Shown here one piece after another: positions 55,330-64,000 of a DNA stretch of 64,000 nucleotides. The DNA lies in NCBI RefSeq assembly GCF_006376615.1, contig NZ_VEXQ01000005.1, forward strand, positions 186,001-250,000. The letters run 5' to 3'. The stretch comes from Buttiauxella sp. B2 (GTDB taxonomy: Bacteria > Pseudomonadota > Gammaproteobacteria > Enterobacterales > Enterobacteriaceae). The number at the start of each line of letters is the position of its first letter. Position 1 is the stretch's first letter. The translations under genes and the position numbers were made by a program. The notes beneath the pieces were generated by a model. The model worked only from the letters and a program-made list of their open reading frames with translations. It did no database searches and was not told where the DNA came from.

Positions 55330-57810
55330 TTAAAGTGCCAGCTCTGACGACAAGAGATCCGTTAGCGTCGCAGCATCCGAGAGCGTTTGCAGCTGTTCGC
55401 GGAAATCGCTGTGCATCAGTTTGCGAGCCAGGCGCGAGAAGATCTTCATGTGGTTATTTTGTTCCTGTTCGTTTACCGTCAACATGATAACCAGTTGCAC
55501 ATCAATACCTTCCCCCCAACTCACAGGCGAATTAGCGCGCAAAAGAGAAATGCTGCTGTGCGACACATGTGGTGATTTGCAGTGCGGAATGGCCACTGAA
55601 AAACCGAGCGCGGTTGAGAACACGGCTTCACGCTCCCAGATAGCCCTTTCCACTTGCGACCCCGAAATAGCCCGCTGCTGTACTTCAAGGTTATCAGTCA
55701 GCAATTTGATAGCTTCTTCTTTGCTGTTCACGGTTTTATCCAGTAACAGCAATTCAGATGCCAGCACCGGTTTTTGCGATTGTGCTCGTGTGAACTTTTC
55801 TACAATTTCCACCACATCTTCACCGGTGTCGCAGGCAATAGCCGTTTCCAGAAGCTTTTGGCATTGCTGAACATTCAGCGTAGTTAGCGCTTCCTTACAT
55901 TGCGTGATAGCTCCCGTCGCCATACTCAACTCCGTTAGCCCCATTCCGACGAGCAGTGGTAGCATTTGCTTATCTGCCGCCATTTCACCACATAGACTAA
56001 TCGCCAGCCCCGCCGCTTGGGCACGCTGCGTAATATCGCGCATTAGCGCTAAAAACGTTGGGTTTCGATAGTCATACAGATGGCGTACATACGGATTCCC
56101 GCGATCGCATGCCAGGAAATACTGCGCCAGATCATTACTGCCGATAGAAACAAAATCGAGATAGTTAGCGGCTTTTTCCAGAAGATAGAGCGTTGATGGC
56201 ACTTCAACCATAATACCAAGGTGCCACTCCCCGAGCGGAATATCCTCCTGCTGCAACGTGGCTGCGATGCGCTGAAACTCGCTGTGTAACCATTGTATTT
56301 CCGCAAGCGTTGCCACCATCGGCACCATGATATTCAATGGCCCAACCGCACTCGCTCTTAATAACGCACGGGCCTGCGTGGTGAAAACGTCATGAAACTG
56401 CGGGTACATACGCACGGCGCGATAGCCCAGGAACGGGTTTTCCTCTTTTGGTAAATCCAGAAAATCACAGGGTTTATCGCCACCAATATCCAGCGTACGA
56501 ATAGTGATTTTTTTGCCCGCCGCACTTCTTAGTACTTCGCTGTATGCCTGAAATTGCTCATCTTCATCAGGCGCCTGGCTACGCTCACAAAACAGCATTT
56601 CGGTGCGGAACAGACCAACGCCATCAGCCCCAAGGGCAAACGCACTTTGCGCTTCAATGGCGAGTGCAGTATTCGCCAGCACGCTGACGGTGACACCATC
56701 AGCCGTAGAAACCTGTTGCCCGCACAATGGTGCACTTCGTTTCGCAATCGCCCGCTGTTTCGCTGTTTCCAGCCGATACCAGCTTTCCATTGCTTCATTC
56801 GGATTCGCCACCAGCAAACCGTAGCGGCTATCCAGAATCAACATGCTGGCCTCATGCGTCAGCCCCTCACTTTGCGTCACACCGCATAGCAACGGTATAC
56901 CGAACGAACGGGCCAGAATCACGGTATGTGAGGTTTCACCACCGTCGCCCATCACAATGCCTTTCAGATGTGGATTGCGCAGCCGCAGAAACTGGCCGGG
57001 AGTAAGCGTACCGCTACAAATAACAATGCTGTCTTGCGTAAGCATTAGCTGGCTTTCAAGCGGTCTCCCTAACAGATTTGTGGCAATACCCTGGCAAAGA
57101 TCACGAATATCAATAACGCGTTCGCGCAGATACTGGCTGCTGCTGTTGAGTAACGGTTGGCTCAACGTCTGCGCTGTCAGCACGATAGCTTGTAATGCGT
57201 TGCGCGCGGTAATGTGTGAAAACAAACATGATTTAAACGCAGGATCGCTGAGCAATTTAAGCTGCGCCGCCAGGACATGTTCGGCCCCCACATCTGCACT
57301 GCACAGCGTCTGTTGCGTTATGGCCCAAGCTTCAAGCAATTGCTGCTGTTGAAGAACAACATCCGTTGCAGGTTCATGACGCGACAATTCATGGAGATCC
57401 ACCGAATCAATATGAACCGGAACACCACGGCCAATCCCCTTACTGACGCCATTACCACGCATGTATTTCGGGCAGGCATGTTCAATAAAGACCGGCAGCG
57501 GTTGTGTGTGATTGTCCGGCGATAACACTAGCGGTTCGTCACAATCTTCAAACTCATCGTGCATAAACGCATGAAGCAATTCAAAGGCCACTTGTTGATC
57601 TTCACCTTCAATCAAAAACTGGCACTGGTCGCCATGAGTAATATCCGCACCAATCATACCCAATACGCTTTTCGCATCAGCCTGCGTTTTTTTGCTCAGA
57701 TTTATCAATGTAATAGAAGCTTTAAAAGGTTGCGTACGCTGTTCGATTTCACTGGCCGGACGCGCATGAATGCCATTGGGCAGAGTACAAATAAAGTCGA
57801 GTGTTAGCAT
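55330..57810 (-). CDS. Fused PTS protein HPr-Enzyme I-EIIA (fructose class)
   Basis: 826 residues with three PTS modules: HPr at residues 1-85 (PNGIHARPASE), Enzyme I at about 105-665 (phospho-His in GGETSHTVILARS; GVGLFRTEMLF; SLCGEMAAD) and fructose-type EIIA at the end (AIPHCKSPHVSHSS). The architecture is that of E. coli FryA and PtsA. All phospho-histidines are present, so it can take phosphate from PEP and pass it to its own EIIB. I choose ATG 57810, 13 bp after the mannosidase stop; an in-frame start ten codons upstream overlaps that gene. Confidence 0.9.
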   Translation of the reverse strand: MLTLDFICTLPNGIHARPASEIEQRTQPFKASITLINLSKKTQADAKSVLGMIGADITHGDQCQFLIEGEDQQVAFELLHAFMHDEFEDCDEPLVLSPDNHTQPLPVFIEHACPKYMRGNGVSKGIGRGVPVHIDSVDLHELSRHEPATDVVLQQQQLLEAWAITQQTLCSADVGAEHVLAAQLKLLSDPAFKSCLFSHITARNALQAIVLTAQTLSQPLLNSSSQYLRERVIDIRDLCQGIATNLLGRPLESQLMLTQDSIVICSGTLTPGQFLRLRNPHLKGIVMGDGGETSHTVILARSFGIPLLCGVTQSEGLTHEASMLILDSRYGLLVANPNEAMESWYRLETAKQRAIAKRSAPLCGQQVSTADGVTVSVLANTALAIEAQSAFALGADGVGLFRTEMLFCERSQAPDEDEQFQAYSEVLRSAAGKKITIRTLDIGGDKPCDFLDLPKEENPFLGYRAVRMYPQFHDVFTTQARALLRASAVGPLNIMVPMVATLAEIQWLHSEFQRIAATLQQEDIPLGEWHLGIMVEVPSTLYLLEKAANYLDFVSIGSNDLAQYFLACDRGNPYVRHLYDYRNPTFLALMRDITQRAQAAGLAISLCGEMAADKQMLPLLVGMGLTELSMATGAITQCKEALTTLNVQQCQKLLETAIACDTGEDVVEIVEKFTRAQSQKPVLASELLLLDKTVNSKEEAIKLLTDNLEVQQRAISGSQVERAIWEREAVFSTALGFSVAIPHCKSPHVSHSSISLLRANSPVSWGEGIDVQLVIMLTVNEQEQNNHMKIFSRLARKLMHSDFREQLQTLSDAATLTDLLSSELAL

Positions 57811-57823
57811 GTTTTCCCCACCC

Positions 57824-60412
57824 TCAGAAAGTGATGACAAAAGTAGCAGGCGCGCACGTTGGCACCGTTCCTGGATGGGTATTCAACGCAGTTTCAGCAA
57901 GCGTCGCGGGCGTTACTTCCCCGTTTGCGCTAACCGCCCCTCGTGGTAAAGGTTGCGTAGACGGGTTCCAGCTACGCACCACTAACGCATCGCTATGTTG
58001 CGCTTTTTTCAGCACGCTGAAATGAAGATCGGTATCCCAACTTAATATGCTGAAATGATGTGGGAAAATGCGGCTGTGAGGATTAGAACGGAAACGGGAC
58101 CAGCCAGTTGCAAGCCAGGCGTGAAGCATACTGCGGGCACGTTCAACGTCACGCCAGAACACCTTATCCGCGCCGTTATTCATCAATAACAGGCTGAGTT
58201 TGAAATGGTGCATTCCCTGAATTTGCGACTCTGGCGACGGCAAAACCATACCGGATGCGCGACCAGGACGATAAGGCATATTGGCCTGCCCGAGCCAACC
58301 CACGCTACGCAACAAAGTCACCGCAATCACGTCCTGCCGATTTTCTGGGATTTGATATTCACGCAACCCTTCAGTCACAACGCACAACCCGCGCTTCTCG
58401 TCGAACATCATGACCTGGCTTTGCATCGGATAGAGTGCTACCGGGGCTTCAGTCCACTGCTCGTCTTTCCAAACTGCCATTTCAGGCGGTTGGTTATAGC
58501 GTTCAATCAGGCCAAATGGCTGATCAGCGAAGTGAATATGTTGCTGAACATCAGTCGGTAGCAAGACCTGCAAACGATGATCGCAAACCGTGTTATTCAC
58601 GCTGATAGCCACATCAAGCCAGGTATTACTATGCACAAGCGTGATGACCATCGAAATATCGAGATTGGCATCGATCTTGCGCTCTTTGCGCGCCGCTAAA
58701 TCCTGCGGTACAGCCATCTGCCAGTTCAGCGTTAAACTACTTTGCAACGGCCCTTGCTGACCACTGATGGAAGCCAGAAATGCATCACTATTGATAAGCC
58801 AGTCATCGAACGGAGGCGAATAGTTGTAGTTATCACCTGCGTCCCCACCATCTACCAATTGCAAAATGTGGTGATAAACCTGTCGACTGCGCTTGTCGGT
58901 CAGCGTCAAAATCCCTCGTTCGTCAGCATCTAATCGCAGCCATTCGTTTTCAAGTTTCACTATCGGTTTACTATGCTGTTCAAAACCCGCGCTGACACCC
59001 TCTTGCAAGTACAACGTCTGATAACCGCACGCAGGGATATCGGCGACTTCCAGCACCAACTGACATTTGCGGTACCAGGTGGTTTCGGTGCTGTTTGATA
59101 ACTCCTGAACGATTATCGACATATCCTGGCGACCTTCTTCGACAATCTGCCAACGGCACTCTTTGCCTGCGCCATCTACCACGCGGAAATCGTGATCCGG
59201 TGTGAAAATCGTTAGTTCGACCAGACCGTGACGGACTTGCGGACGGGCATTGAAGATGATGATTTTCTTGCCTTCCTGTAGCGCTGAGATCCCTTCAGCG
59301 AGCATCTTCATATTCAGATCGATAAGCTGTTCAGCCATTTCGAGGCCCGATTCAAGGCGATTTTTCACCATCGCGTTCACCCGGTCTGAATTGCAGCCGC
59401 CAATACTGTCGTGAGCATGGGACTTCATCGCTTCGCGCCAGATGTTATCCACTGCATGTTGCGGATACGGAAGGCCCAGCCGCCAGTTGACGGCTAATAG
59501 CGGCTCCAGATGTTGGCTCAGTGTCTGTTCCAGGCGTGCATTCAACTGTTTAATGTCGACACGAGTTGAGAAAATACCGCGATGAACACGCATGTATTTT
59601 GGGCTGATTAGCTCTCCCTGGTAAGTCGGCAACTCTGCATTCGTGCTTTCCAGCGCCTGGAAAAACTGGCTGAAACTGCTGCGTACAAAACGATAGTTAT
59701 CTTGCTGCTGATTCAGCTGGTCGAGCATTGCCGGAACGCGATACTCAAACGGCGACTGGTCATTGCCATTTGGTAGCAGAACATGGTCGGTTAATGAGAA
59801 ACGTGTCTGTTTTTCCAGAGTCGTTTCCAGTGTCTTTAACCCGTCAAGTGGGGAGTCCGGCAACCATTTTGCACAACCATATCCCCACGGCAGTACGGCG
59901 GCGGTGACTTTACTGCCATCGGCACTGTGCCAGCTAAATTCACTGTGCGACACGTTGTATTCGCTCCAGCCACGCCAGATAACTGCATGGTCGATAGCAA
60001 ACTGTTGCAAAAACATTGGTAATTGTGCGCTTTGCCCAAATGAATCAGGAACATAACCTATAGGCATTAAGCCACCAAAGCGTTGGCAATCGGCGTGCCC
60101 TAGCAGCAAGTTACGGGTTATAGACTCCGCCCCCACCACCAGAAAATCGCTTTGCGTATACCATGGACCGGTAACAATTCGACCCTGCTCAATTAATTTC
60201 CGTAATCGTGTTTCCTGATGAGGTGCCACATTTAAATAATCTTCGATAATGACCGTTTGCCCGTCGAGAACGAATGGCCCTAATGTTTTATCTTCTTCCA
60301 GGCGCTGTAATAAATCGTCCATAAAATAATAAAGCACTGCTTTTGAATCATTCTCGGTGAAATACCACTCACGATCCCAATGAGTATGTTGTACCAGATG
60401 AACAGTTTTCAT
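57824..60412 (-). CDS. mngB: Alpha-mannosidase, GH38 (MngB-like)
   Basis: 862 residues (877 in E. coli MngB, which cleaves 2-O-(6-phospho-alpha-mannosyl)-D-glycerate). The GH38 head has the zinc motif QHTHWDREWYF at residues 8-18, GPWYTQSDFLVVGAESI, and the nucleophile Asp in GYVPDSFGQSAQLP near residue 140. A beta-sandwich half follows (VAISVNNTVCDHRLQVLLP). There is no signal peptide, fitting an intracellular enzyme acting on a PTS-phosphorylated mannoside. The symbol follows E. coli; the exact substrate is unproven. Confidence 0.85.
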   Translation of the reverse strand: MKTVHLVQHTHWDREWYFTENDSKAVLYYFMDDLLQRLEEDKTLGPFVLDGQTVIIEDYLNVAPHQETRLRKLIEQGRIVTGPWYTQSDFLVVGAESITRNLLLGHADCQRFGGLMPIGYVPDSFGQSAQLPMFLQQFAIDHAVIWRGWSEYNVSHSEFSWHSADGSKVTAAVLPWGYGCAKWLPDSPLDGLKTLETTLEKQTRFSLTDHVLLPNGNDQSPFEYRVPAMLDQLNQQQDNYRFVRSSFSQFFQALESTNAELPTYQGELISPKYMRVHRGIFSTRVDIKQLNARLEQTLSQHLEPLLAVNWRLGLPYPQHAVDNIWREAMKSHAHDSIGGCNSDRVNAMVKNRLESGLEMAEQLIDLNMKMLAEGISALQEGKKIIIFNARPQVRHGLVELTIFTPDHDFRVVDGAGKECRWQIVEEGRQDMSIIVQELSNSTETTWYRKCQLVLEVADIPACGYQTLYLQEGVSAGFEQHSKPIVKLENEWLRLDADERGILTLTDKRSRQVYHHILQLVDGGDAGDNYNYSPPFDDWLINSDAFLASISGQQGPLQSSLTLNWQMAVPQDLAARKERKIDANLDISMVITLVHSNTWLDVAISVNNTVCDHRLQVLLPTDVQQHIHFADQPFGLIERYNQPPEMAVWKDEQWTEAPVALYPMQSQVMMFDEKRGLCVVTEGLREYQIPENRQDVIAVTLLRSVGWLGQANMPYRPGRASGMVLPSPESQIQGMHHFKLSLLLMNNGADKVFWRDVERARSMLHAWLATGWSRFRSNPHSRIFPHHFSILSWDTDLHFSVLKKAQHSDALVVRSWNPSTQPLPRGAVSANGEVTPATLAETALNTHPGTVPTCAPATFVITF

Positions 60413-60546
60413 ATTTCGACCCTACATGATGACGAGATCATATTAATCACGGCATAATGACTTTTATTTAAACGCGGAGAACCCTGAGAATAATCACTCT
60501 CATTTATATTTCCCAGACACTCATCAGAACACCATAAAATAAACCG

Positions 60547-61674
60547 TTAACGGCTCACTTTAAATTTAGGTGCTGGTGTAGTGGTTTTTTCTTCTTTGTT
60601 GGTTAATGGTTTCATTTGGCGAAAAACCAGCAGTGAACCCACTGCGACAATCGCGGAACCTACGGCAATCGACAGGATGTAAATCGGCCAACCATCCACG
60701 GCCAACCAACCATAAAACCCGGAAATGGGCGCATGATTTACTGCACCTAAACCCACCGCCATCGCAGCCCCCGTGGCTGTACCTACAACGTTGATAATAA
60801 TAATTTTGGGATTTGCCAGGGCAAAAGGAATTGCACCTTCCGAAACACCAATCAAACCCATAAGCGTTGAAGCTTTACCTGCTTCTTGCAACGATTCCGG
60901 GAAGCGGTTTTTCCAGATAAGTGAAGCAACGCCGAGGCCAATTGGCGGGATGATAATCGCCACTTGTGCCGCCGTATTGGGGTCGTAAATACCGGAAGCT
61001 AGTAACGCCATTGCGGTAGTGACTGCCGCTTTGTTTACCGGCCCGCCAAGGTCAAAGCCCACCATACCGCCGACCACTGCCGCCAGGATGATTTTGTTGG
61101 TGCCGGACATCGCCATTAACCACGCTTCCATACCGTGATTTAATGCCGCCAGAGGCGTGCCAATCACAAATGCCATGATGATGCAGGTCAGCAGCGTGCC
61201 ACCAACAGGCAGAATAAAAATCGGTCCCGCAGAGGCCAGCGAGCGTGGCAGTTTAACTTTCGCCGTCAACAAGCGAATGATGTAACCCGCGACGAAACCC
61301 GCCGCCAGTGCTCCCAGGAAGCCCGTTCCCAGGTTACTAGCCAAAAGACCACCCACCATGCCTGGCGCAATCCCCGGTTTATTGGCAATCGCAAAACTGA
61401 TGTAACCCGCCACAACCGGCAACATCAATGACAACGCTAGCCCACCAAACCCATCGAACTTGTGTAGCATCTGCACGACCAGGCTTGCAGCTTGTTCATG
61501 GCTGGCATCCCAAATATTATCGATGCCATACATCGAGGCACCAATACGGGCGATCCCCATAATAACCGCACCTGCGATGACAAACGGCAGCATGTACGAT
61601 ACACCCGTCATGATAGCGTTTTTGACTTCTGTACCCGTGGAGGATTTCGGTCCGCCACCCTGAAATTTAGCCAT
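60547..61674 (-). CDS. Fructose-class PTS EIIC component
   Basis: A 375-residue membrane permease domain of the fructose/mannosylglycerate class. It starts with a short cytosolic leader and YMLPFVIAGAVIMGIARIG, with further helices such as GFGGLALSLMLPVVAGYISF, and carries the family stretch NHAPISGFYGWLAVDGWPIY. In E. coli MngA the A, B and C domains are one protein; here they are separate genes. The start overlaps the EIIB stop by eight bases. The mannosidase gene follows after 134 bp. Confidence 0.9.
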   Translation of the reverse strand: MAKFQGGGPKSSTGTEVKNAIMTGVSYMLPFVIAGAVIMGIARIGASMYGIDNIWDASHEQAASLVVQMLHKFDGFGGLALSLMLPVVAGYISFAIANKPGIAPGMVGGLLASNLGTGFLGALAAGFVAGYIIRLLTAKVKLPRSLASAGPIFILPVGGTLLTCIIMAFVIGTPLAALNHGMEAWLMAMSGTNKIILAAVVGGMVGFDLGGPVNKAAVTTAMALLASGIYDPNTAAQVAIIIPPIGLGVASLIWKNRFPESLQEAGKASTLMGLIGVSEGAIPFALANPKIIIINVVGTATGAAMAVGLGAVNHAPISGFYGWLAVDGWPIYILSIAVGSAIVAVGSLLVFRQMKPLTNKEEKTTTPAPKFKVSR

Positions 61675-61981
61675 GATTTATCTCCTGCTCAATGGCTTCA
61701 AAGACGGCCTCACCAAACTTTATCGGGTCTGCCACGCTGCATTCCAGTTTTAGCATGCCATCAAACCGTTCTCTGTTATTGATAGCAACATCGGCGGCAA
61801 TGATCACACCATCGGCACGCACCAGGTCTTCTGCGGTAATCTCGTTCTCTACCCCCATGCTGCCCTGGGTTTCGACTTTAATTTCATGCCCACGGCTTTT
61901 GCCAGTGATTTCCAGCGCTTCAGCGGCCATAAAGGTATGAGCGACGCCTGTCGGACATGCAGCTACACAAACGATATACAT
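61667..61981 (-). CDS. Fructose-class PTS EIIB component
   Basis: A 104-residue EIIB domain. The phosphorylated cysteine is in VCVAACPTGVAHTFMAAEAL near residue 9. It takes phosphate from the EIIA domain of the fused protein at 55330 and gives it to the sugar in EIIC. It is the first recognised structural gene of the operon and follows an intrinsic terminator by only 36 bases. Confidence 0.92.
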   Translation of the reverse strand: MYIVCVAACPTGVAHTFMAAEALEITGKSRGHEIKVETQGSMGVENEITAEDLVRADGVIIAADVAINNRERFDGMLKLECSVADPIKFGEAVFEAIEQEINHG

Positions 61982-62463
61982 AATGGATTCTCTCTCGGGT
62001 CGGATTTAGACAATAAAAAAAGCACAATGGCGGTGAGGCGCATTGTGCTTTTTAATCGATAAAACAGCATATTATGTGAATCTGAATTGGCGTCTGACTC
62101 GCCGCTTAAACGATGGCAAACCAACAACTGGTGGACACTGCGGGTAGTAAAGCTAAACGCCAGCTCGTGGCGAAGTTGCGCCACCAGGCGAACCTGAAAA
62201 ATAGTTTTTACAGCACCTGAGGCTTGTGGAATCGGTAGCCGGGGAGATGCAGCTACCAAGCTCTGGCTTGCACAACCCCATAAACGTGACCAGCCACAAG
62301 AAAAATCATCATCGCTATTTTCATGCGTAGATTCTTCAGCAGAACTCAGTGACTGAACGGAGTTGAAACAACAAAGTCCACACAGCAATGACTTCACGCT
62401 GCTGAATCTCTCCAGCAGACAATAGAAGCAATAGCTGATAAATCGGTGGACAATGGTTGACAT
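61963..62463 (-). CDS. Unrecognised 166-codon frame in the leader of the mannoside PTS operon
   Basis: Begins MSTIVHRFISYCFYCLLERF with a strong ribosome site (GGAGG six bases before ATG) 18 bases after the predicted transcription start. The product is rich in Cys and Ser and resembles nothing I know. Codon use looks noncoding in places, the frame runs through the terminator hairpin, and it overlaps EIIB by 19 bases. A second, shorter frame, MKIAMMIFLVAGHVYGVVQA, looks like a signal peptide. It may be a real gene, a leader peptide or a decayed one. Confidence 0.3.
   Translation of the reverse strand: MSTIVHRFISYCFYCLLERFSSVKSLLCGLCCFNSVQSLSSAEESTHENSDDDFSCGWSRLWGCASQSLVAASPRLPIPQASGAVKTIFQVRLVAQLRHELAFSFTTRSVHQLLVCHRLSGESDANSDSHNMLFYRLKSTMRLTAIVLFLLSKSDPRENPLCISFV
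62017..62053 (-). terminator. Intrinsic terminator just upstream of the EIIB gene
   Basis: AAAAGCACAATG and CATTGTGCTTTT pair perfectly around 11 bases and are followed by more T on the minus strand. It stands between the predicted promoter and the first PTS gene, the position of an attenuator. Confidence 0.8.
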
Positions 62464-62487
62464 ATTTCCTCCAGAAACGAGTAGATG

Positions 62488-62530
62488 ATAATAGTCAGGA
62501 ATGAATTGGGGGAATGTGATTGTTCGCACA
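62488..62530 (-). promoter_or_regulatory. CRP-dependent promoter of the mannoside PTS operon
   Basis: The minus strand holds TGTGCGAACAATCACA (62515-62530; nine of ten CRP positions) and -10 TATTAT (62488-62493). With transcription from about 62481 the CRP centre is at -41.5, the class II position. No good -35 is needed or seen. Confidence 0.6.
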
Positions 62531-62566
62531 ACTTCTCACATTACGCTAATCCCTAATCAAAAATAA

Positions 62567-62593
62567 AAAAGCCACTCATTATGAGTGGCTTTT
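62567..62593 (-). terminator. uppP terminator
   Basis: AAAAGCCACTCAT and ATGAGTGGCTTTT are perfect inverted repeats around one base, followed by TTATTTTT on the minus strand, 17 bases after the uppP stop. Confidence 0.9.
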
Positions 62594-62610
62594 AATATTA
62601 GTGGTGAATA

Positions 62611-63429
62611 TTAGAAGAACACGAAATAAACCACTGCCGCAACCGCAAAACGATAAATTGCGAACGGAATAAAAGAAATACGCTTGATAATTTGCAGGAA
62701 TGTTTTAATAGCAATTAGCGCAACGATAAATGCGGTAATAAAACCAACGGCAAACATTGGAAGATCGGCCATAGTTAAAAAACCGATGCTCTTATAAACA
62801 TCCAACACTGTGGCACCCATCATCATTGGCACGGCCAGCAGGAAAGAAAACTCAGATGCAGCGTATCGGCTAACACCCATTAGCATCCCGCCTGAAATTG
62901 TCGCACCGGAGCGCGAAAATCCCGGCCACAAAGCTAAACACTGGAAGCAACCAATAGCAAATGCCTGACGATAAGTGATGTCATCAACACCTTCTGCACG
63001 CGCAACTTTTGGTTTTAACAGTTCTGCGGCTATCAGCAGCACACCGCCCACCACTAGCGCATACATGACGTTCACCGGATTAAATAGCGATTTAATCATG
63101 TCATGGAAAACCAGCCCCAGAACCACCGCTGGCACCATACCCAACAGGATATGGATCAGTGTCAAACGCCCTGTTCCCGTGCCTTCATGCGGTTGGCGAC
63201 CAAAGTGAATACCAATAAGCCCAAACAAGCGACGCCAGAACATCACCACCACCGCAAGGATAGAACCAAGCTGGATAACCACTTCAAATGTTTTCGCCGT
63301 ATCGCCTTCAAATCCGAGCAAGTGACCGACAATAATCATATGGCCAGTGGACGAAACAGGGAGGAACTCCGTAAGACCTTCAACAACCCCAAGAATTGCA
63401 GCAATAACTAACGAGTGCAGATCGCCCAT
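62611..63429 (-). CDS. uppP: Undecaprenyl-diphosphate phosphatase UppP (BacA)
   Basis: Recycles the lipid carrier undecaprenyl diphosphate for peptidoglycan and other envelope polymers; extra copies give bacitracin resistance. The 272-residue membrane protein (273 in E. coli) has the two family motifs [17 protein letters not shown] near residue 17 and [13 protein letters not shown] near residue 172. In E. coli it follows cca. Confidence 0.97.
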
Positions 63430-63460
63430 TAATAAACCCTCTAACCCCTAAAGCAAACAT

Positions 63461-63482
63461 AAAAAAAGCGGCAACTGCCGCG
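63461..63482 (-). terminator. folB terminator
   Basis: On the minus strand GCGGCA-GT-TGCCGC is followed by seven T residues, 54 bases after the folB stop. Confidence 0.85.
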
Positions 63483-63535
63483 AATAGATAACAGTTATGA
63501 CCAGGTTACACATGCTTGGTTTAACAAATATGAAT

Positions 63536-63904
63536 TTAATGATTAGCTTTCAGATTACTGCCACGTTCAATAACAACCCCAACATTGGCTGCCTGCGCAA
63601 CCGCACCTGGTTTGCTGACTTTTAAACGTACCCAAGGTGAATTAAAGCGGGTCAGCAGGAGTTGTGCGACCTCTTCAGCAACACGTTCAACCAGAGCAAA
63701 ACGCCCCCCGGAGACATGGTTAATTACCGCTTCACTGACATCAGCATAGCTTAAACAATCATTTACATTGTCGCTGCTGGCGGCCTGGCGGTTATCCCAT
63801 GCCATTTCGATATCGAATACCAATTTCTGGGAGATAGTTTGTTCCCAGTCGTAAACACCAATTGTGGTGATTACAGTGAGTTGCTCTATAAATACAATGT
63901 CCAT
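63536..63904 (-). CDS. folB: Dihydroneopterin aldolase
   Basis: Makes 6-hydroxymethyl-dihydropterin for folate synthesis and also epimerises dihydroneopterin. The 122 residues begin MDIVFIEQLTVITTIGVYDW, as in E. coli; ATG 63904 is preferred over the GTG just before it. The catalytic Lys is in VRLKVSKPGAV near residue 100 and the pterin-binding Glu near residue 74 (ALVERVAEEVAQ). Confidence 0.96.
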   Translation of the reverse strand: MDIVFIEQLTVITTIGVYDWEQTISQKLVFDIEMAWDNRQAASSDNVNDCLSYADVSEAVINHVSGGRFALVERVAEEVAQLLLTRFNSPWVRLKVSKPGAVAQAANVGVVIERGSNLKANH

Positions 63905-63907
63905 CAC

Positions 63908-64000
63908 GCCCTGCCCGGTTTTTAGTCACGCCAGATACCACTTCTGGCGAAATATGCGTATTATCCACAGATGCAGAGAATACAACGACACTTTCAAAAT
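63908..64000. other. Intergenic edge upstream of folB
   Basis: No gene is visible in the last 93 bases. In E. coli the divergent neighbour is plsY, whose start would lie beyond the window. TATTAT near 63958 on the plus strand could be its -10. Confidence 0.4.

Follow-up and report, generated by a model that had tools for sequence, protein, structure and literature searches.

What is a predicted transcription terminator doing inside an open reading frame, directly in front of a set of sugar-uptake genes? This question is raised by a minus-strand operon of Buttiauxella sp. B2 within the 64,000 nucleotides of contig NZ_VEXQ01000005.1 analyzed here (positions 186,001 to 250,000; hereafter, the window). 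The operon lies between bacA, which was identified by Pfam, and a cca-like gene, which was named from its translation alone, and it comprises, in order, a leader frame, EIIB, EIIC, a GH38 gene, and an HPr-EI-EIIA gene (Table 1). The end of the leader frame overlaps the EIIB start by 19 nt, and 35 nt separate the end of the hairpin at 62017 from the EIIB start in the window. A first-pass annotation of this sequence had offered two alternatives, i.e., that transcription is attenuated in the leader or that the leader encodes a protein. Our comparison with relatives says both, and adds that the protein gene is conserved and that the terminator is conserved inside it. The window also has a strong terminator-like hairpin after bacA (62593-62567), directly upstream of the CRP promoter, and this hairpin probably insulates the operon.

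Table 1. Features of the leader locus and operon in the window
Feature	Position	Strand	Basis and remarks
CRP site TGTGCGAACAATCACA (TGTGC-N6-TCACA)	62515..62530	(-)	Sequence; center ~41.5 upstream of predicted start, class II
-10 hexamer TATTAT	62488..62493	(-)	Sequence and conserved spacing; predicted start near 62481
Shine-Dalgarno GGAGG of leader frame	62468..62472	(-)	Sequence
Leader gene, ATG 62463, 166 codons + TAG	61963..62463	(-)	Homologues, dN/dS
Conserved core of leader protein, codons 1-121	62101..62463	(-)	Alignments; dN/dS 0.166 in Buttiauxella core
Linker between core and hairpin, 49 nt	62052..62100	(-)	Counted to start of AAAGCAC
Predicted intrinsic-terminator stem-loop inside leader frame	62017..62053	(-)	Fold; near-invariant arms
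T7 run of terminator	62015..62021	(-)	Sequence; 6-8 in relatives, once 10
PTS EIIB (fructose-like), ATG 61981	61667..61981	(-)	Pfam PF02302; TIGR00829 above cut-off
PTS EIIC (fructose-like)	60547..61674	(-)	PF02378; TIGR01427 above cut-off
GH38 alpha-mannosidase, mannosylglycerate-hydrolase-like	57824..60412	(-)	858.6 bits, below NCBIfam cut-off of 1138
HPr-EI-EIIA multiphosphoryl transfer protein	55330..57840	(-)	Family match

The sequence upstream of the leader frame has the arrangement of a class II CRP promoter, with a site near -41.5, a -10 hexamer, and no -35 element, from which the transcription start is predicted. A simple promoter and terminator scan omitted this promoter since it has no -35 box, as expected for class II CRP. 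The first-pass annotation had already placed such a promoter here with a start near 62481; its coordinates are correct, and the geometry recurs in 35 of 36 aligned rows (one genome being counted twice), in which 21-22 nt separate TCAC[AG] from a downstream TANNNT. The left CRP half-site is TGTG in 27 of those 35 rows, with weaker left half-sites in Providencia, Chimaeribacter, and one Enterobacter. The exceptional row (G747) has a CRP-like site without a TANNNT hexamer at the expected spacing. A promoter between the terminator and EIIB, or a lack of conservation, had been named in the first pass as observations that would speak against its reading; a simple consensus scan of the window revealed no promoter-like site there, and conservation of the leader is strong.

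The leader frame itself, which had been described as well initiated (GGAGG and ATG 62463), 166 codons long, and overlapping EIIB, is correctly placed. A check of its conservation and Ka/Ks, proposed at the same time, uncovered homologues in relatives and, by the Nei-Gojobori method, core dN/dS values of 0.166, 0.280, 0.084, 0.250, 0.155, 0.225, and 0.322 in seven lineages (i.e., 0.08-0.32), versus 0.84-2.55 for the two alternative reading frames of this DNA. Within Buttiauxella, dN/dS was 0.189 in the linker and 0.577 in the tail that overlaps EIIB; values for the hairpin and tail of Providencia and Chimaeribacter were left unused because they compare different frames. By these comparative measures, the leader frame is a real protein gene under purifying selection. 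A chance open frame over a non-coding leader, in favor of which there is the absence of a family match and nothing else, is ruled out by the dN/dS contrast with the control frames and is further opposed by frame conservation and by protein homology in nine genera and Photobacterium, so that we assign it a vanishingly small probability.

The conserved core displays a hydrophobic N-terminus followed by CCF/CWF, W..LW, R.EL.F, and QL..C....G motifs, and beyond the core there is little conservation between genera. As a gauge of an N-terminal export or membrane signal, Kyte-Doolittle maxima over 17-residue windows range from 1.02 to 2.99 in 35 rows, the signal being clear in Superficieibacter and weak in some others (1.29 for the protein of the window). 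Searches of Pfam, NCBIfam, PHROGs, and the PDB yielded no convincing relative of the leader protein (best E 0.0063, for one of 19 members), and neither Pfam and NCBIfam (19 members) nor NCBIfam (40 members) returned a match to a ribosome-rescue factor or ArfA. Two AlphaFold predictions of the protein were poor (pLDDT 41.5 and 55.3). In the one gene table that covers such a leader, itself incomplete, the leader gene is unannotated.

Leader DNA is present at 77-83% identity in 7 of 11 congeners, in each of which the frame is open for 166-167 codons, and is absent from the remaining 4. When 295 genomes of the family were searched with the protein, 15 matches turned up in 7 of 154 genera; a second query, run against 392 genomes, gave 24 matches in 10 of 154 genera, of which we kept 23 in 9 genera. 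The one discarded match (G185; E 0.0014; a genus of its own) has neither hairpin nor EIIB, was judged spurious, and is outside the count of 23. The carriers therefore represent eight genera besides Buttiauxella, from the family search, together with a diverged one in a Photobacterium. EIIB follows the leader in all 23 homologues, once beyond an inserted intron. In the genus of G747, 5 of the 14 genomes searched are carriers.

A pattern scan of the genome collection returned 82 stretches, and 28 of the 80 listed are the leader locus, all of them in Enterobacterales by title (Buttiauxella, Cedecea, Chimaeribacter, Citrobacter, Enterobacter, Klebsiella, Kluyvera, Pluralibacter, Providencia, Superficieibacter, and one record titled Enterobacteriaceae); the other 52 lack this leader frame and EIIB and were set aside. 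Order-wide searches found 3 of 394 genomes each, in Buttiauxella only, from a draw that may or may not include other carriers, and with the profile search scoring at most nine candidates per genome. Among 198 genomes searched, seven EIIBs of at least 79% identity were all in leader-bearing genomes. No leader was found within ~1.5 kb on each side of 23 EIIBs of 46-51% identity (best score 6.3 bits) or beside a Vibrio EIIB (best score 4.2 bits). In E. coli, the query finds matches in 4337 of 5426 genomes, via EIIB (frwB) in the matches listed, and no match among the 5426 genomes covers 80% of the query. On a plasmid of Chimaeribacter arupi (L168:7597-10129), GH38 is annotated as two adjacent pieces, and this copy may be broken; the incomplete gene table of this plasmid has no entry for the leader gene.

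The hairpin at 62053-62017 folds with -18.2 kcal/mol (z -7.6; 0 of 200 shuffles as good) and is followed directly by T7. A simple terminator scan, whose rule allows loops of up to 8 nt, omitted it. The strong intrinsic terminator that the first-pass annotation had drawn before EIIB is nevertheless correctly positioned, and its arms are exactly AGCACAATG...CATTGTGCTTT in 22 of the 23 protein-found homologues. The 23rd, G747, has GCACAACG...CGTTGTGC, in which a T-A pair is replaced by a compensated C-G pair, and this change is common to all five carriers of its genus. In a selection of 27 rows, 22 of them distinct, from which other loop lengths and a number of close relatives were omitted, 96.4% of cells pair, 10 of 14 pairs are invariant, and one pair varies on both sides; these figures are good for a stem but amount to only one independent compensated event. 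The number of pairs changed on both sides is reached in 298 of 500 shuffle controls and so lends no support. The arms and the inner GCGC/GCC letters are near-constant while the loop varies; dS in Buttiauxella is 0.797 in the core versus 0.115 in the hairpin, and a six-row Cedecea/Enterobacter group has zero changes in the hairpin. Judged from these substitution patterns, the terminator is conserved as nucleic acid inside the leader gene.

Beyond the terminator, the consensus fold of 31 leaders contains two small local helices only, with no conserved alternative antiterminator pairing among these 31 sequences. A single-sequence fold of the whole leader, terminator included, gave z -2.84. In a search for known RNA families, nothing in 57000-64000 scored above gathering, and there were two weak matches at the bacA terminator. 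Early in the leader frame (alignment columns 86-102), we observed a small hairpin whose two sides have changed in a paired manner in several rows, which may reflect either a second RNA element or the relatedness of the rows.

In uncultured Cedecea sp. 73 (L119:2300-4230), with a leader identical to the G319 one, the T-run is immediately followed by an inserted group II intron that carries a reverse transcriptase, and EIIB comes after the intron. The reverse transcriptase is above the TIGR04416 cut-off, and RF02001, RF01998, and RF00029 are above their gathering scores. Group IIC introns target a terminator stem-loop, according to PMC7161350. By analogy, the insertion of this group II intron may be an independent hint that the hairpin is read as a terminator.

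The leader frame enters this hairpin in three phases, giving, for example, STMR in Buttiauxella, KAQC in Superficieibacter, and KHNA in Citrobacter. Mapped onto a tree of EIIB proteins, which was built from 34 rows by a quick search and has 12 weak branches among its 28 inner ones, the leaders require at least 5 changes of entry phase, 2 of loop length, and 7 of T-run length; of these indel events (at least 14), only the five entry-phase and two loop changes bear strongly on the frame test. From 45 nt before the hairpin to the end of the T-run, stop codons occur in 0 of 35 leader frames versus 44 of 70 alternative frames. A single frame would be open by chance at ~0.37 (26 of the 70 alternative frames) and five independent phase changes at ~0.007, although the 35 rows are related and the test thus gives no simple probability. 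What had been noted for the window, a frame open through the hairpin, accordingly extends to 35 of 35 sequences, none of which has a stop before the T-run end. Given that the frame is free to change and is still open in every phase, selection seems to act on passage of the ribosome through the terminator and not on the peptide made across the hairpin.

Spacing around the hairpin is also maintained. The last conserved glycine of the core is 39-43 nt from the hairpin outside Buttiauxella and 49 nt within it, whichever of the three phases is used, and where EIIB is adjacent (34 rows) it lies 62-73 nt from the hairpin. The ends of the leader frames range from 6 nt beyond the T-run to well inside EIIB, with the stop ~60-95 nt inside EIIB in several relatives. 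In Kluyvera genomosp. 3 (L126), a T-run of 6 rather than 7 results in an in-frame leader-EIIB frame of 258 codons; in K. georgiana (L149), the leader and EIIB frames are separate.

A diverged homologue of the leader is found in Photobacterium sp. DA100 (NZ_CP119424.1, L206:2969-3643), of the Vibrionaceae, in a single record deposited as a plasmid. Its core match scores 29.9 bits versus 7.2 for the best of 500 shuffles, and hhalign gave E 0.00012 with a probability of only 55%. The hairpin differs (AAAAGCACAG...CTGTGCTTTTT; -16.3 kcal/mol; z -5.4), retaining only the outer AAAAGCACA/TGTGCTTTT, and stands 74 nt before a related EIIB. It has the same placement and is crossed by the open leader frame; of the two alternative frames, one is interrupted by stops no more than 45 nt ahead of the hairpin and the other by a stop 60 nt ahead of it. 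When searched against plasmids, the Photobacterium protein found itself alone, and among 64 genomes of the order to which the window belongs it gave one match, the EIIB-overlapping tail of the leader locus in the window, which was not counted.

Collectively, these observations lead us to favor, with slightly better than even confidence, a reading of the leader as a translated attenuator, i.e., pyrBI-type attenuation coupled to translation, in which the leader is a conserved protein. Translation of the leader would thus probably decide transcription of the uptake genes. More specifically, CRP-cAMP would initiate transcription ~18 nt before the leader gene, and a ribosome following close behind RNA polymerase through the ~410 nt of leader frame would cover the 5' arm of the hairpin by the time the polymerase is at the T-run. 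With that arm covered, the hairpin would be blocked and transcription would proceed into the EIIB-EIIC-GH38-EI genes. Conversely, if the leading ribosome were late (owing to poor initiation, a pause, or arrest in the core), the hairpin would form and transcription would stop. Since a transcript ending at the T-run has no stop codon, the consequence would be arfA-like, and the leader product would be tagged by tmRNA. The likeliest sensor of ribosome timing would be the leader protein, as a nascent chain or after its synthesis.

Translation-coupled antitermination requires a frame that crosses the hairpin without a stop, as this one does in every phase, and to this extent the model put forward in the first pass is strengthened; a non-stop role, which that pass had left out of account, fits the data too. 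Precedents exist for the coupling step: PMC5021804 describes that termination at the pyr leader hairpin is inhibited by the ribosome as it advances and that a stall site upstream of the pyrL hairpin lowers downstream expression when EF-P is missing, and PMC4824070 states that terminators late in a coding region are partially repressed by the ribosome, for which its authors' explanation is translation pausing. However, a closely following ribosome would nearly always silence the terminator, which demands a regulator of coupling; no such regulator was found. Ribosomes passing to stops inside EIIB might also hinder EIIB initiation. Furthermore, the near-invariance of the arms exceeds what a plain terminator needs, with one independent compensated pair only.

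An ArfA-like non-stop device, which we regard as unlikely, would use the same terminator to produce a stop-less leader mRNA, such that the protein is tagged by tmRNA, accumulating only when trans-translation is saturated, and PTS read-through is secondary. Its design needs a stop beyond the T-run, and this is the case in 35 of 35 rows in any phase; the poor conservation of the protein past the core between genera also suits it. The arfA gene provides the precedent, having an in-frame stem-loop that is both an intrinsic terminator and an RNase III site, and repression by trans-translation (PMC10107115). Against such a device, the leader was never found without EIIB (23 of 23), the hairpin-EIIB distance is held at 62-74 nt wherever no intron intervenes, which a purely leader-directed device would not need, and the family libraries contain no rescue-factor match.

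An ordinary operon could also account for part of the data: the leader protein would be an accessory protein of the PTS or the mannosidase, and a partly effective terminator would make it more abundant than the downstream proteins, with no regulated coupling. Purifying selection on the protein and the constant association with EIIB agree with this, as do the T-runs of 6-8, a length that is usual for working terminators. In such an operon, however, the gene should stop before the terminator, whereas the stop comes after it in 35 of 35 rows and makes the abundant short transcript non-stop; in addition, the arms are much better conserved than a plain terminator needs. We consider this arrangement rather improbable.

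The boldest reading, which we regard as doubtful, is that the leader is a nascent-chain sensor for a sugar PTS. The chain would arrest its own ribosome in the conserved C-terminal part of the core, at 39-49 nt from the downstream hairpin, and the ribosome would be freed by some signal, such as the insertion of the chain into the membrane or the transporter's state. Such an arrest would uncouple the ribosome from the polymerase, whereupon the terminator would fire, yielding a non-stop transcript and sending the leader to tmRNA. If true, the locus would represent an arrest-peptide-controlled transcription attenuator for carbohydrate uptake. SecM and VemP have hydrophobic N-termini and are ~150-170 aa long. 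They, and MifM, resemble the present leader in that a leader protein is encoded just upstream of a regulated membrane-machinery gene (PMC10951299, PMC11470409); the likeness is anatomical only. The core here ends 39-49 nt before a predicted transcription terminator and not before a translation-blocking hairpin.

Alternatively, the hairpin could also serve as a binding site at which an RNA-binding protein, a small RNA, or a DNA-binding regulator recognizes AAAGCACAATGCGC...GCCATTGTGCTTT and decides termination. The hardly varying arms and inner letters around a variable loop, along with the 10 invariant pairs, are what this would predict, but loop length varies over 9-11 nt, one lineage has the compensated pair, with G-U pairing in three of its four distinct rows, and Photobacterium keeps the outer AAAAGCACA/TGTGCTTTT only. 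Moreover, there is no regulator gene among the frames read between bacA and cca, and the exact hairpin pattern occurs once in the genome of strain B2. We hold this to be very unlikely.

Returning to translation-coupled attenuation, comparison with known systems brings out what is particular to this leader. In BglG/LicT-type antitermination, a PTS operon likewise has a terminator in its leader; here, in contrast, the leader is translated. No antiterminator-protein gene was found among the operon genes (by Pfam) or the neighboring frames from bacA to cca (by translation), in line with what the first-pass annotation had reported for the surroundings. For pyrBI, the signal is UTP-dependent pausing of the polymerase. 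The locus resembles pyrBI and its pyrL leader in having a terminator within a leader gene before the first enzyme gene, where closeness of ribosome and polymerase decides (PMC5021804, PMC4824070), and it shares a frame open past the T-run (35 of 35) and a start codon 18 nt from the predicted transcript start. It differs in that pyrL is ~135 bp long (PMC4824070), whereas the Buttiauxella leader has a conserved core of ~120 residues and a variable tail and belongs to a sugar PTS operon with a CRP promoter. The likeness to arfA is that an intrinsic terminator inside the frame results in a transcript without a stop codon (PMC10107115); arfA is a ribosome-rescue gene, whereas the present leader precedes a PTS operon and encodes a protein that family searches do not relate to ArfA. 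In the open-licence literature, we found no paper on attenuation or a leader peptide of such a PTS-alpha-mannosidase operon, and among papers on mannosylglycerate/mngB PTS operons in Enterobacteriaceae none was on the leader locus by title.

Relatives of this operon provide a natural series of ~40 sequences with a maintained core, terminator, and spacing but repeated changes of the frame in which the terminator is crossed. The series makes it possible to ask directly whether selection is for a ribosome that passes the terminator or for the peptide made there. Our preferred reading would extend translation-coupled attenuation to sugar uptake and would add an uncharacterized protein family, and the locus would offer a test bed for the interplay of coupling, trans-translation, and catabolite control at a single site.
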